Of a stretch of 64,000 nt of DNA, positions 3,896 to 31,311 are shown one piece after another. The position numbers and the translations under genes were made by a program. The notes beneath the pieces are model-generated. The model saw only the letters and a list, made by a program, of their open reading frames with translations, did not search any database and had not been told where the DNA came from. Each line of letters begins with the position of its first letter. Position 1 is the first letter of the stretch. This stretch comes from Chryseobacterium sp. JM1 (GTDB lineage Bacteria > Bacteroidota > Bacteroidia > Flavobacteriales > Weeksellaceae), in the NCBI RefSeq assembly GCF_000737715.1, contig NZ_JPRN01000010.1, positions 124,001-188,000 on the forward strand, in the 5' to 3' direction.

Positions 3896-3908
3896 TCTTT
3901 TTTTTAAA

Positions 3909-4120
3909 ACCACAAAAGTCACAAAAATATTTTAACACTTAAGTTATTTGAAGTTGAAATGCTTTGCGAACTAGAAGATCACATAAGTTTAAAAAAAATC
4001 AAAGATTTTCAGCAACGTGTTTGGTGTGGAATAAACGGTATTCAATTTTATCGCAGATAAAATCTTAGCGCCTTAAAGCATTCGAATTAGAAAAAAAATT
4101 GCGTGTTTGCGCTTACCAAC
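3909..4120 (+). repeat. long intergenic repeat, copy 1 of a tandem pair
   Basis: A 212-nt unit beginning ACCACAAAAGTCAC and ending near ACCAAC. It is repeated with about 90% identity 262 nt downstream. The left end is the same word that forms the inverted repeats around the GxxExxY gene at 20130-20617. The TTTTATCGCAGATAAAAT / GCGCCTTAAA block recurs at 31.2 kb and 21.6 kb. There is no convincing ORF. Confidence 0.8.
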
Positions 4121-4170
4121 AATATGCATTAACATCTGTGAAAATCTGTGAAATCCGTGGTGAAAAAATA

Positions 4171-4382
4171 ACCACAAAAGTCACAAAAGTATTTTAACAC
4201 TTAAGTTGTTTGAAATTGAAATACTTTGTGAATAAGAAGATCACATAAGTTTAAAAAAAATCAAAGATTTTCAGCAAGATGTTTGGTGTGAAATAAACAG
4301 TATTCAATTTTATCGTAGGTAAAATCCTAGCGCCTTAAAGCATTCGAATTAGAAAAAAAATTGCGCCTTCGCGATCACCAAC
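4171..4382 (+). repeat. long intergenic repeat, copy 2 of a tandem pair
   Basis: Second copy of the 212-nt unit at 3909-4120, in the same orientation. The 50-nt spacer carries the words ATCTGTGAAAATCTGTG and CCGTGGTGA, typical of Bacteroidota intergenic repeats. The pair fills most of the 529-nt gap between the PfpI gene and the aldo-keto reductase gene; nothing else is seen there. Confidence 0.8.
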
Positions 4383-4424
4383 AAAATACTTTGCACTTTA
4401 AAATTTAAATAAATAATCAAAAAA

Positions 4425-18876: not shown

Positions 18877-20124
18877 ATGAAATCATTTGTAGAGTATTCT
18901 TCGGATTCAGACTTTTCTATACATAATATTCCTTTCGGAGTAGCAGTTTTTAATAAAGAATATATCGGATGCTGTACAAGGATCGGAGATCAGGTAGTAG
19001 ATCTTGCGACCCTTTACGATCTTGGGTATTTTGAGGGTATTCAGGGATTAGACGACAATATCTTTGAAGCCTATACCATCAACGAGTTTATCGAGCTGGG
19101 AAAACCCATCACCAATGCGGTACGTGTGAGAATCCAGGAACTTCTGCAGGAAGGTTCAACATTGTCAAAAGACGAAAAAACAATTGCAGACGCATTCTAT
19201 GACCTGGATCAGGTAAAAATGATGATGCCGGTACACATCCCGAATTACACGGATTTCTACAGCAGCATCGAGCACGCCACTAACGTTGGAAAAATGTTCC
19301 GTGATCCGGAAAACGCATTGCTTCCCAACTGGAAACACCTTCCTGTAGGTTATCACGGAAGAGCTTCTTCTATCGTGGTTTCAGGAACAGAAATCAACCG
19401 TCCTAAAGGTCAGACGAAACCTGCAGATGCAGAAAAACCACTTTTCGGACCAAGCAAGCAGCTGGATTTTGAACTGGAAATGGCCTTTATCCTGAACAGA
19501 AACTCAGAAATGGGTGAAAGCATTTCCACAAAAGAAGCTGAAGAAGCCATCTTCGGTATGGTGGTATTCAACGACTGGTCAGCAAGAGATATTCAGGCTT
19601 GGGAATATGTTCCACTGGGACCATTCCTTGGTAAAAACTTTGGATCATCTATTTCTCCTTGGGTGGTTACCCTTGAAGCACTGGAACCTTTCAGAACAGC
19701 TTCTCCAAAGCAGGAACCTGAAGTTTTAGACTATCTAAAATTTGAAGGCGATAAAAATTACGACATCAATCTTGAAGTCTATTTACAACCTGAAAACGGT
19801 GAAGAAAACCTGATTTCAGAAAGTAATTATAAATTCATGTACTGGAATATGACTCAGCAACTGGCTCACCATACGATAAACGGATGTAATGTAGAAGTTG
19901 GAGACCTATACGCCAGCGGAACTATTTCAGGAAGCGATCCAAAATCTTTCGGATCTATGCTGGAACTAACATGGAGAGGACAAAATCCTTTACAGTTAAA
20001 AGACGGCCAGGAAAGAAAATTCATCGAAGATAACGATACCGTTACGATGAAAGCATGGGCTGAAAAAGACGGAGTGAGAGTAGGTTTCGGTGATGTTTCC
20101 GGTAAAATTATTCCAACGGTTTAA
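18877..20124 (+). CDS. fahA: fumarylacetoacetase
   Basis: The last step of tyrosine degradation: hydrolyses fumarylacetoacetate to fumarate and acetoacetate. 415 residues with the N-terminal SH3-like domain (GVAVFNKEYIGCCTRIGDQVVDL) and the catalytic beta-roll. Key segments are DFYSSIEHATNVG (catalytic His), YHGRASSIVVSG, LDFELEMAFIL (metal Glu), VVFNDWSARDIQAWEYVPLGPFLGKNFG and GSDPKSFGSMLELTWRG. Length is normal. Maleylacetoacetate isomerase is not encoded next to it. Confidence 0.95.
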   Translation: MKSFVEYSSDSDFSIHNIPFGVAVFNKEYIGCCTRIGDQVVDLATLYDLGYFEGIQGLDDNIFEAYTINEFIELGKPITNAVRVRIQELLQEGSTLSKDEKTIADAFYDLDQVKMMMPVHIPNYTDFYSSIEHATNVGKMFRDPENALLPNWKHLPVGYHGRASSIVVSGTEINRPKGQTKPADAEKPLFGPSKQLDFELEMAFILNRNSEMGESISTKEAEEAIFGMVVFNDWSARDIQAWEYVPLGPFLGKNFGSSISPWVVTLEALEPFRTASPKQEPEVLDYLKFEGDKNYDINLEVYLQPENGEENLISESNYKFMYWNMTQQLAHHTINGCNVEVGDLYASGTISGSDPKSFGSMLELTWRGQNPLQLKDGQERKFIEDNDTVTMKAWAEKDGVRVGFGDVSGKIIPTV

Positions 20125-20129
20125 TATTC

Positions 20130-20151
20130 TTAACCACAAAAGTCACAAAAG
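20130..20151 (+). repeat. left 22-bp terminal inverted repeat of the GxxExxY unit
   Basis: Begins TTAACCACAAAAGTCAC. Its exact reverse complement occurs at 20596-20617, on the other side of the GxxExxY gene. The core word also starts both tandem repeats at 3909 and 4171. Confidence 0.85.
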
Positions 20152-20156
20152 ATTTT

Positions 20157-20565
20157 ATGATTACACAGTCATATTTAACTGATCTGACGTATAAGATAAA
20201 CGGCGCCTGCATAGAAGTTCACAAAATTTTAGGCGCCGGTTTATTAGAAAGTGTGTATCATAAATGTCTGGAAGAAGAATTTACACTTAGAAACATTAGC
20301 TTTAAATCCAGAGATGAAGGTCCCTTTAATCTATAAAGGAAAAGAAATCAAATGTGACTTTTTTTGTGACTTTCTTGTTGAAGATTTAATTGTTGTCGAA
20401 TTAAAATCAGTCGTTGAGTTCAATGATATTCACCGATCTCAAATTTTAAATTATATTAATTTAATGAAGAAACCCAAAGGAATCTTAGTCAATTTTAATG
20501 TAAAAAATCTGTATCATGAAGGACAGGAAACTTTTGTAAATAAATATTACAATATGCTTTTTTGA
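20157..20565 (+). pseudogene. GxxExxY protein (PD-(D/E)XK superfamily), frameshifted
   Basis: Two overlapping frames together rebuild one GxxExxY-family protein (PF13366 type). Frame 1 from ATG 20157 gives KINGACIEVHKILGAGLLESVY, which contains the GxxExxY signature, and ends at TAA 20334. Frame 2 carries EMKVPLIYKGKEI, the nuclease-like core CDFLVEDLIVVELKSV (D...ELK), and QILNYINLM. Skipping one base at about 20310 (TCC-A-GAG) joins them exactly at the expected family position. It is therefore a single-base insertion, a sequencing error, or a frameshift site. The gene is enclosed by perfect 22-bp inverted repeats, and the downstream frame is otherwise undamaged, so the change is recent. Confidence 0.8.
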
Positions 20566-20595
20566 ACTTAAAAAACAGCTTATTTTATCTTAAAG

Positions 20596-20617
20596 CTTTT
20601 GTGACTTTTGTGGTTAA
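20596..20617 (-). repeat. right 22-bp terminal inverted repeat of the GxxExxY unit
   Basis: CTTTTGTGACTTTTGTGG and onward is the exact reverse complement of 20130-20151. The two ends define a 488-bp unit that begins 5 nt after fahA and stops 9 nt before the flavin reductase gene. Confidence 0.85.
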
Positions 20618-20626
20618 AAATAAAAA

Positions 20627-21451
20627 ATGAAAACAGTTATCCCATCCGAATTATCCCCCGTCCAGCTTCAGACCATCATGCAGACCGCAGTGTCTCCGCG
20701 TCCGATTGCTTTGGCTTCTACGGTAGATAAAAACGGAACGATCAATTTATCTCCATTCAGTTTTTTTAATATGTTCAGTACAGTTCCTCCGATATTGATT
20801 TTTTCACCATCGAGGAGAGTACGCGACAATACAACTAAACATACACTTGAAAATGTTCTGGAAGTTCCGGAAGTAGTAATCGGAACGGTAAATTTTCCAA
20901 TCGTACAGCAGATTTCTTTAGCATCTACAGAATATGAAACCGGAATCAATGAATTCATCAAATCCGGACTGACCATGAAAGATGCAGACCTGGTGCAGCC
21001 TAAACTGATTGAAGAATGCCCGGTTAACTTTGAATGTAAAGTTTTAGAAGTTAAATCTCTGGGAGATCAGGGAGGCGCAGGAAATCTGGTAATCTGTGAG
21101 GTTCAGAAAATTCATATCAGAGAAGAGTATCTGAATGAAGCCGGGAATTTAGATCAGCAAAAACTGGATATGGTGGCCCGTTTAGGAGGAAACTTTTACT
21201 CCAGAAGCAATGAGAACAGTATTTTTGAAGTACCTAAACCTTTGGTCACAAAAGGAATTGGGTTTGATCTGCTTCCAGATTCCATTAAATACAGTAAGAT
21301 ATTTACAGGAAACGATCTGGGAATGCTCGCCAATGTAGAAATACTTCCTGCAGGAGAATTCCATGCGGATGAAAATGTTCATACAAACGTTCAGAAATTA
21401 CTCTTGGAAAGTAAAATTGAAGAAGCCTGGACGCTTTTAACAATAGCATAA
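20627..21451 (+). CDS. flavin reductase family protein (FMN-binding split barrel)
   Basis: 274 residues. The N-terminal half has the flavin-reductase-like split-barrel pattern: SPRPIALASTVDKNGTINLSPFSFFNMFST, then PPILIFSPSRR and the NFPIVQQISLAST helix. The family binds FMN and acts as an NAD(P)H:flavin reductase or a ring-cleaving partner. It follows fahA, separated by the GxxExxY unit. Gene order suggests it belonged to the aromatic-degradation operon before that unit was inserted; this is an inference. Confidence 0.82.
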   Translation: MKTVIPSELSPVQLQTIMQTAVSPRPIALASTVDKNGTINLSPFSFFNMFSTVPPILIFSPSRRVRDNTTKHTLENVLEVPEVVIGTVNFPIVQQISLASTEYETGINEFIKSGLTMKDADLVQPKLIEECPVNFECKVLEVKSLGDQGGAGNLVICEVQKIHIREEYLNEAGNLDQQKLDMVARLGGNFYSRSNENSIFEVPKPLVTKGIGFDLLPDSIKYSKIFTGNDLGMLANVEILPAGEFHADENVHTNVQKLLLESKIEEAWTLLTIA

Positions 21452-21623: not shown

Positions 21624-21701
21624 GTCATTGCGAGGAGCGCAGCGACGAAGCAATCTCAAAAAAAACGCTTTAGATTACTTCACCTAAAGGTTCGCAATGA
21701 C
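21624..21701. repeat. REP-like palindrome, copy 3
   Basis: Same orientation as copy 1: GTCATTGCGAGGAGCG...AAGCAATCTCA and the opposing TTCACCTAAAGGTTCGCAATGAC arm. It separates the flavin reductase gene and the convergent lipoprotein gene. Confidence 0.85.
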
Positions 21702-31026: not shown

Positions 31027-31043
31027 GATATGGATTTTTTTTT

Positions 31044-31311
31044 GTTGGTAAACGCAAAGGCGCAAGTTTTTTTAATATGAAACTGTTTTTAAGGCGCAAG
31101 AAAATCATAGATTTTCAGCTATTTTTATGCCTCTGTCATTGCGAACCTTTAGGTGAAGCAATCTCAAATTATTTAACAATACCTTTTTTTGAGATTGCTT
31201 CGTCGCTCTGCTCCTCGCAATGACAGCGATACTCAATTTTATCGGAGATAAAATCCTTGCGCCTTAAAACGTAATGCATTCAAATATCTTGCGCCTTTGC
31301 GTTTTTCCAAC
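31044..31311. repeat. composite palindromic repeat with nested REP element
   Basis: Outer arms GTTGGTAAACGCAAAGGCGCAAG (left) and CTTGCGCCTTTGCGTTTTTCCAAC (right) are inverted copies. Inside lies the AATCATAGATTTTCAGC word, REP copy 4 (31135-31224), then TTTTATCGGAGATAAAATCC and GCGCCTTAAAACG. The outer element is the same family as the tandem repeats at 3.9-4.4 kb. It fills most of the gap between tenA and the TonB receptor. Confidence 0.75.
31135..31224. repeat. REP-like palindrome, copy 4, nested
   Basis: GTCATTGCGAACCTTTAGGTGAAGCAATCTC and the opposing GAGATTGCTTCGTCGCTCTGCTCCTCGCAATGAC arm. Inverted relative to copies 1 and 3. It sits inside the composite repeat 31044-31311. Confidence 0.85.

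Follow-up and report, generated by a model that had tools for sequence, protein, structure and literature searches.

MITEs are short, non-autonomous inverted-repeat units found in intergenic DNA, and the intervening sequences of 23S rRNA are units in which a small protein gene is enclosed by inverted arms. A REPtron consists of a RAYT (TnpA_REP) gene flanked by REP or TIR inverted repeats, with gene-less palindromes also occurring genome-wide (PMC3733652; see also PMC3116915 and PMC2817692). The GxxExxY, or PDDEXK_3, family (PF13366, TIGR04256), to which the genes studied here belong, is defined by its protein only. In the open-access literature (subscription papers and preprints being outside the scope of our search) we found no description of repeats or word arrays around GxxExxY genes and no known function for the protein; the open-access papers that use the name mention it in passing, and PF13366 also appears in PMC9756366. 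Our proposal, which we hold tentatively and at slightly less than an even chance, is that GxxExxY genes and the word arrays that flank them form a two-part system of enzyme and repeat, the mechanism of which we infer.

The starting point was a 64,000-nucleotide stretch of the genome of Chryseobacterium sp. JM1 (hereafter the window), in which a 488-bp unit begins 5 nt past the fahA stop codon and stops 9 nt ahead of the ATG of a flavin reductase gene, a placement that an earlier note on this DNA had given correctly. The exact 22-bp inverted ends described in that note were also confirmed, with TTAACCACAAAAGTCACAAAAG on the plus strand matched by an exact inverted copy on the minus strand (Table 1). 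Allowing up to three mismatches, the window contained four matches to TTAACCACAAAAGTCACAAAAG, compared to none in 100 dinucleotide shuffles. The remaining two are at 3906–3927 (three mismatches) and 4168–4189 (one mismatch), and the central 18-mer is exact at 3909 and 4171, in agreement with the earlier claim that the end word opens the gene-less tandem repeats there. These tandem repeats (3909–4386) are chimera-like, with a left arm of the CACAAAAG type and an inverted right arm of the CGCAAAG type. The gene inside the 488-bp unit had been described as encoding a GxxExxY protein. The family assignment stood, in that TIGR04256 matched both pieces of the gene (E 2.4e-12 and 4.5e-22; 47.2 and 78.6 bits, both exceeding the curated cut-off of 35 bits) and PF13366 matched it as two frames overlapping at ~20275–20315, but a frameshift had been overlooked. 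The ATG at 20158 opens a frame of 59 codons that ends at a stop at 20335–20337, and the C-terminal two thirds of the protein lie in a second frame (ORF 20251–20565), such that an intact frame, when looked for in the window copy, was absent. Relatives with an intact frame retain the catalytic motif in the alignment. In our reading the window copy is a dead member of the GxxExxY system, with arms that persist.

Table 1. Positions of the window features discussed in the text.
Feature	Position	Strand	Basis and remarks
Left arm, two CACAAAAG words pointing at the gene	20130..20151	+	sequence match
Frameshifted GxxExxY / PDDEXK_3 gene	20158..20565	+	ORFs and profile matches
Right arm, identical to the left arm but inverted	20596..20617	-	sequence match
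fahA, upstream neighbor (stop at 20124)	18877..20124	+	name per earlier note; anchor for the junction comparison
Flavin reductase-like gene, downstream neighbor (ATG at 20627)	20627..21451	+	name per earlier note
Gene-less chimeric repeat, CACAAAAG arm first, inverted CGCAAAG-type arm last	3909..4123	+	by eye, end approximate
Second tandem copy of that chimeric repeat	4171..4386	+	by eye, end approximate
CGCAAAG-family palindrome without a gene, another palindrome (GTCATTGCGA...) at its center	31042..31280	.	by eye; right end beyond 31280

QxxxY is the name of a motif in PD-(D/E)XK nucleases. Residues E27, D67, K79, Q91 and Y95 were invariant in 52 of 52 GxxExxY sequences, and E77 was present in at least 90% of them; both the D...ExK and the QxxxY elements of a PD-(D/E)XK nuclease with QxxxY are thus conserved. 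PF13366 matched three relatives at 140–151 bits (E 3e-44 to 5e-41), and a Pfam comparison of three intact relatives gave no Y1_Tnp match at E values up to 1. The predicted fold was confident (pLDDT 96). The solved folds that Foldseek ranked highest were those of PD-(D/E)XK nucleases, namely SSO0001, which we take to be a Cas4, and lambda exonuclease; an archaeal Holliday resolvase came in at rank 15. These matches are weak, with a best E of 8e-3 and none at E ≤0.001. A sequence search for solved relatives returned none at E values up to 10.

We then compared by eye the spacers between fahA and the flavin reductase gene, taking from the 118 genus genomes the 30 whose flavin reductase was most similar. 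Nine spacers, including that of the window, contained a GxxExxY gene with CACAAAAG arms (type A), and seven contained a gene with CACTTTAG-like words and a central GAAAATC...GATTTTC (type B). The others had no gene: six held a short palindrome (type C; in two cases the right arm was of type A), and eight held a different palindrome (type D). The type D spacers (L044, L052–L054, L056 and L062–L064) mostly carried another inverted repeat, resembling GATGCTTCGACTCCGCTCAGCATGACA. The earlier note had set against its own reading the case in which all relatives hold the same unit at this site, and that case half applies: 16 of the 30 spacers (window included) were filled, and 14 lacked the gene. The unfilled junctions hold other palindromes, and no target-site duplication, which the note had suggested looking for at filled and unfilled junctions, was visible by eye in the 30 spacers. 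The genes were visibly broken in 4 of the 16 gene-bearing spacers (L037, L041, L065 and L066). Because the type A and type B genes form one clade in the protein tree, both arms at this site appear to have switched word together. On the flavin reductase tree of the 30 genomes, the distribution of spacers called for at least 9 changes between gene and no gene and 13 changes among the four types; on the fahA tree the corresponding counts were 11 and 13. One close relative, with a FahA 99.8% identical, is gene-less and has a left arm that resembles type B (L038).

Beyond this junction, GxxExxY matches were present in 111 of the 118 genus genomes (1 to 9 each) and in 152 of the 296 Bacteroidota genomes sampled, or about half. 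For each gene we scored the complementarity between the 350 bp before and the 350 bp after it against 200 dinucleotide shuffles, taking the phylum loci as 30 plus 60 from the top of a score-ordered list and the genus loci likewise as 30 and 60 (L272, with too short a flank, was left out). The score of the locus itself was unreached by any shuffle at 64 of 92 Bacteroidota genes and 35 of the 59 genus genes listed, in 15 of 18 fahA-site readings and at 2 of the 4 other GxxExxY genes of the window genome, as opposed to 2 of 167 control genes, which were mechanical ORFs from the window genome only. Among the 30 top-scoring genus genes the fraction was 1 of 30, and a strict inverted-repeat score on these same genes had at first suggested that GxxExxY genes and arms are not associated. 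Wider sampling reversed this conclusion: 28 of the 30 belong to a single armless clade at one conserved genomic site (site 0), which explains the initial result. None of 38 genes in the site 0 clade had significant arms, a finding that counts against a two-part system, whereas 48 of the 67 genus genes outside site 0 did (genes of at least 100 residues). Possibly the clade, which includes 28 of the loci L067–L096, has been domesticated. With 64 of 92 Bacteroidota genes and 48 of 67 genus genes outside the armless clade, the link that the earlier note had drawn between a nuclease-fold protein and a dispersed inverted repeat is supported far outside this one locus.

How much these units move was examined with a tree of 105 genus genes. 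Nine of 12 sites, defined by neighboring genes, each formed one branch, which counts against recent hopping; the stronger statement that every genus site is monophyletic is wrong. Site 2 consisted of two clades of 7 and 5 genes and may join two places with related neighbors, and sites 8 and 13 were not single branches. Two possible moves inside the genus are site 9, which arises within site 8 (support 93), and site 11, which arises within the unresolved site 13. The same word class also occurs at many different sites across genera. Together with the 9 of 12 genus sites that are single branches, this distribution indicates that the units have moved over long times and have been mostly static over short ones. 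Of the mobile unit that the earlier note envisaged, a gene with matching ends at many different sites is supported, and recent mobility is not. Candidate recent copies at non-syntenic positions were rejected: among the pairs listed, most were 71–81% identical, and the pair at 89.8% (L077 and L107) was assigned to one site. A phage or plasmid vehicle was likewise rejected: relatives of the L297 protein were encoded by none of 50,697 phage records (E 1e-5) and by 8 of 72,556 plasmid records. In one 25-kb plasmid record of Bacteroides finegoldii (NZ_OY725952.1, L481), a GxxExxY gene lies between radA and the gene for an FAD-dependent protein.

These results bear on homing, a term the earlier note had used, in which the nuclease would cut gene-less palindromes and copy its own gene into them. 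Consistent with homing, gene-bearing and gene-less palindromes with a near-identical left arm occur at one site (L042 versus L038, by eye), gains or losses at the fahA site are frequent (at least 9 changes in 30 genomes, the direction not being given by the tree), and sites 9 and 11, branching as they do from within sites 8 and 13, may be moves. However, there are few genes per genome (0–9 matches) compared with many palindromes, most genes remain at fixed sites, and no site was caught with a gene that had recently entered a palindrome. The possible moves from site to site are few and weakly supported. The label of homing-like unit is not supported, and we regard homing as very unlikely.

Returning to the arms, we found that the flanks of 93 phylum genes are rich in a 7-bp word, CRCNRAK, that points at the gene from both sides. 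Its commonest forms in the phylum set were CACAGAG, CGCAAAG, CACAAAG and CGCAGAG, and the CACAAAAG of the window is a variant of it. Within 25 bp of these 93 genes, inward words numbered 27.1 per kb on the left and 42.2 on the right, compared with 2.6 and 3.4 for outward words, the word having been derived from the same loci in which it was counted. The inward excess vanished beyond ~75 bp, and successive words were spaced 8–11 nt apart, with a peak at 9–10 nt and a second bump at 19–22. At least three chained words were present at 70 of the 93 phylum genes and at 50 of 81 genes of named loci, but at only 17 of 111 genus genes, which counts against a two-part system; the low number in the genus reflects the many words that have diverged there (CACAAAAG, CATTAAG and CACTTTAG, by eye). 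Flanking words occur as well at genes from records labeled Planctomycetota, Cyanobacteria (Tolypothrix), Acidobacteria, Treponema and Anaerolineae, although most of the named records from outside Bacteroidota are MAGs, of which several contigs may be misbinned. When the two arms were aligned, word columns were 0.891 identical and spacer columns 0.730, with word above spacer in 82 of 91 comparisons (orthologous loci included). The word is thus conserved as sequence and not only as pairing.

The letters at the variable positions of the word were uniform within a locus (0.94, 0.92 and 0.98 at positions 2, 5 and 7, versus 0.68, 0.69 and 0.78 after shuffling). They also agreed between the left and right arms, at 0.96, 0.94 and 1.00 versus 0.51, 0.50 and 0.69 for shuffles in a comparison that took in orthologous loci, and at 0.98, 0.94 and 1.00 when it was repeated with one locus per site. 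At position 4 the left–right agreement (0.91 versus 0.81) fell inside the shuffled range. On a protein tree of 52 sites with one locus each, different sites being defined by neighbor similarity within 900 bp, the letters required 5, 9 and 5 changes, compared to shuffled means of 16.4, 16.9 and 10.1, and none of 1000 shuffles was as low. Adding 80 named loci, for a total of 80 sites, gave 13, 13 and 4 changes versus 25.5, 26.3 and 10.5, again below every shuffle. The distance between words fell with protein identity (Mantel rho -0.358; lowest of 1000 permutations, -0.161), and the word distance for 24 pairs of genes from the same genome (1.26) was no lower than that for 3011 pairs from different genomes (1.19). 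The word tracks the protein lineage, not the host genome. This statement covers the genes where three or more words are chained (70 of 93 phylum genes and 17 of 111 genus genes), the 117 of 204 genes left out including the armless clade and most loci of the genus to which the window belongs. The protein trees behind it have ~126 columns and 6 well-supported branches of 49, which counts against a two-part system. Alignment columns 122, 8, 7 and 113 were among those with the highest mutual information and are candidate specificity positions, for which a separate test on independent pairs had too little power. The co-variation of word and protein could also arise if gene and arms are simply inherited together, with no recognition involved.

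A reading built on such joint inheritance is that the palindromes are ordinary repeats of the host, or terminators working in both directions, on which other enzymes act, and that GxxExxY genes landed inside some of them, are carried along and share only ancestry with them. Inheritance in the genus is indeed mostly site-bound; the switching of the fahA site between gene-bearing and gene-less states (at least 9 changes in 30 genomes) fits recombination between alleles; and the number of words in a genome is not predicted by the presence of type A. This passive linkage nevertheless leaves unaccounted for the genes of one genome that carry different words matching their protein identity, the retention of one word in both arms while the spacers drift, the presence of arms at only 2 of 167 control genes, and the Y1 genes of the same genomes, which lack these words inward. 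On balance it strikes us as quite unlikely.

The words also occur away from GxxExxY genes. The earlier note had suggested a search of related genomes for the end word: the window's word, as CCACAAAAGNCACAAAAG, had 1,205 copies (arms beside genes included) in 107 of the 118 genus genomes, and the reversed control had none. Among the matches listed, 18 of 29 neighboring CCACAAAAGNCACAAAAG pairs within 300 bp were convergent, 11 were tandem and none were divergent; 10 of the 18 convergent pairs came from one genome (G114). These convergent pairs span 130–197 bp end to end, again among the matches listed, and are therefore too short to hold the gene. The dispersed copies that we examined by eye had the form, in whole or in half, of layered palindromes around a central hairpin, and one folded as single-stranded DNA at -36.8 kcal/mol, compared with -17.8 for shuffles (z -6.3). 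Gene-less copies of words other than that of the window were sampled or examined by eye only. At orthologous junctions, a stub hairpin occupied the place in G097 of a 190-bp palindrome in G000 (7 of 14 genomes readable), and G017 and G062 contained palindromes within palindromes. At the L106 site, 2 of 29 readable genomes had the gene, and the rest had gene-less palindromes of other word families or none (by eye). Target-site duplications, sought by eye at L008 (7 of 14 readable), L017 (14 of 14) and L106 (29 of 30), were not seen. The window has one nested case, at 31042–31280, where a GTCATTGCGA...TCGCAATGAC palindrome sits at the center of a CGCAAAG-family palindrome. A GTCATTGCGAGGAGCGCAGCGACGAAGCAATCTC repeat related to GTCATTGCGA...TCGCAATGAC lies at ~21624–21701, past the flavin reductase gene.

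Across the 118 genomes, the word count rose with the number of GxxExxY matches (rho 0.40, kinship ignored), and the seven genomes with no match had a median of 1 copy, compared to 9. The more specific idea, in which the copy number of the word would be driven by a type A gene at the fahA site, was not supported (9 genomes versus 21, p 0.31), and a gene of either type at that site, compared with none, did not predict word number in the 30 genomes (p 0.28).

The dispersed copies are also pertinent to self-regulation, in which the arrays would be operators (and transcript ends) bound by the GxxExxY protein or another factor, the gene-less copies would be decoys or relics, and nothing would be mobilized. 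In its favor, the words are phased near one helical turn and reach their greatest density in the 50 bp nearest the gene, before it as well as after it, and autoregulation too predicts the co-variation with the protein. It leaves unexplained, however, the inverted array downstream of the stop codon, the median of ~9 copies of one word per genome, often in close convergent pairs, and the nested palindromes of several word families, and we consider it unlikely.

Our best reading, by analogy, remains that of a nuclease with its own dispersed palindromes, which would work like a RAYT/REP pair with an unrelated enzyme. In such a system the GxxExxY protein is predicted to recognize and bind its own word array, and the putative nuclease would cut or open palindromes that have extruded into hairpins or cruciforms. 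In the repair that follows, one arm might be copied onto the other, which would keep the arms and words alike, and gene-less palindromes might occasionally be spread in trans. The gene, for the most part staying in place, would supply non-autonomous repeats, the role proposed for RAYTs with respect to REPs. A word that co-varies with the protein supplies a predicted DNA target for many members of the family, making function directly testable. If the proposal is true, the origin of the abundant dispersed palindromes in these genomes would lie with a class of enzymes that is not known for producing such repeats, and many natural pairs of nuclease and word would be available for studies of specificity.

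No family tested here fits the GxxExxY–word system; if REPtrons are counted as a kind, the system is a variant of them. As in REPtrons, a nuclease-type gene lies between inverted repeats that also form dispersed gene-less palindromes, a likeness that holds for the window's word in this genus. RAYTs, however, are HUH Y1 enzymes and GxxExxY proteins are of the PD-(D/E)XK type, and REPs are short tagged hairpins whereas the GxxExxY repeats are phased arrays of a 7-bp word. In 15 chosen genus genomes (20 loci fetched of 35 listed matches), GxxExxY words pointed inward within 350 bp of Y1 genes at 0 of 19 readable loci, and other inverted repeats (score at least 17) were present at 17 of the 19. 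Membership among REPtrons thus fails, because the fold is not HUH and the Y1 genes lack inward words. A RAYT as mobilizer of the words was not supported either; in the 15 chosen genomes the word-rich G116 had no Y1 match and the word-free G003, G043, G098 and G117 had some. Inverted repeats of the AGTCCCGAAGGGACG type lay on both sides of five Y1 genes (L462, L464, L468, L470 and L479), a RAYT-like system that coexists with the GxxExxY one. Like MITEs, the gene-less units are short, inverted-repeat and intergenic, but no parent transposase with these ends was identified and no target-site duplication was seen. The Cas4-like and lambda exonuclease folds ranked first for GxxExxY, in weak matches only.

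The 23S rRNA intervening sequences share the arrangement of a small gene between inverted arms, but their IVP/S23 proteins (TIGR02436; PMC11270868) are unrelated, and the GxxExxY loci are not in rRNA. TIGR02436 genes (four-helix, 23S-IVS-type) were present in 59 of 60 genus genomes. At 29 of the loci L157–L186, TTAGGT occurred 31 times inward and never outward, and NAGG/TTGG words were mostly spaced 7 (73) or 14 (33) nt apart; the period is thus 7 nt at these genes of the genus versus 8–11 nt in the phylum GxxExxY set. That an unrelated IVS-type family also has inward word arrays in the genus, and that the GxxExxY arms are complementary, might suggest an element acting at the RNA level, in which base pairing of the transcribed arms would go with release or processing of the gene, as in the 23S rRNA intervening sequences. 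Because pairing is less well kept in spacer columns than in words (0.730 versus 0.891) and the loci examined lie between protein genes, outside rRNA, we judge such an element highly improbable. A broader version of the enzyme-plus-repeat proposal, possible but doubtful, is that several phyla contain a large class of word-array elements, so far undescribed, whose enzymes are the GxxExxY proteins. Each protein lineage would read a 7-bp word of its own, the words being spaced about one DNA turn apart, and would use its PD-(D/E)XK site to copy, homogenize and spread palindromes made of that word; a parallel system with a 7-nt period would be run by one or more unrelated families of small proteins, including the 23S IVS proteins (TIGR02436). 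The inverted-arm score exceeded the 95% level of control genes at only 6 of the 29 TIGR02436 loci.
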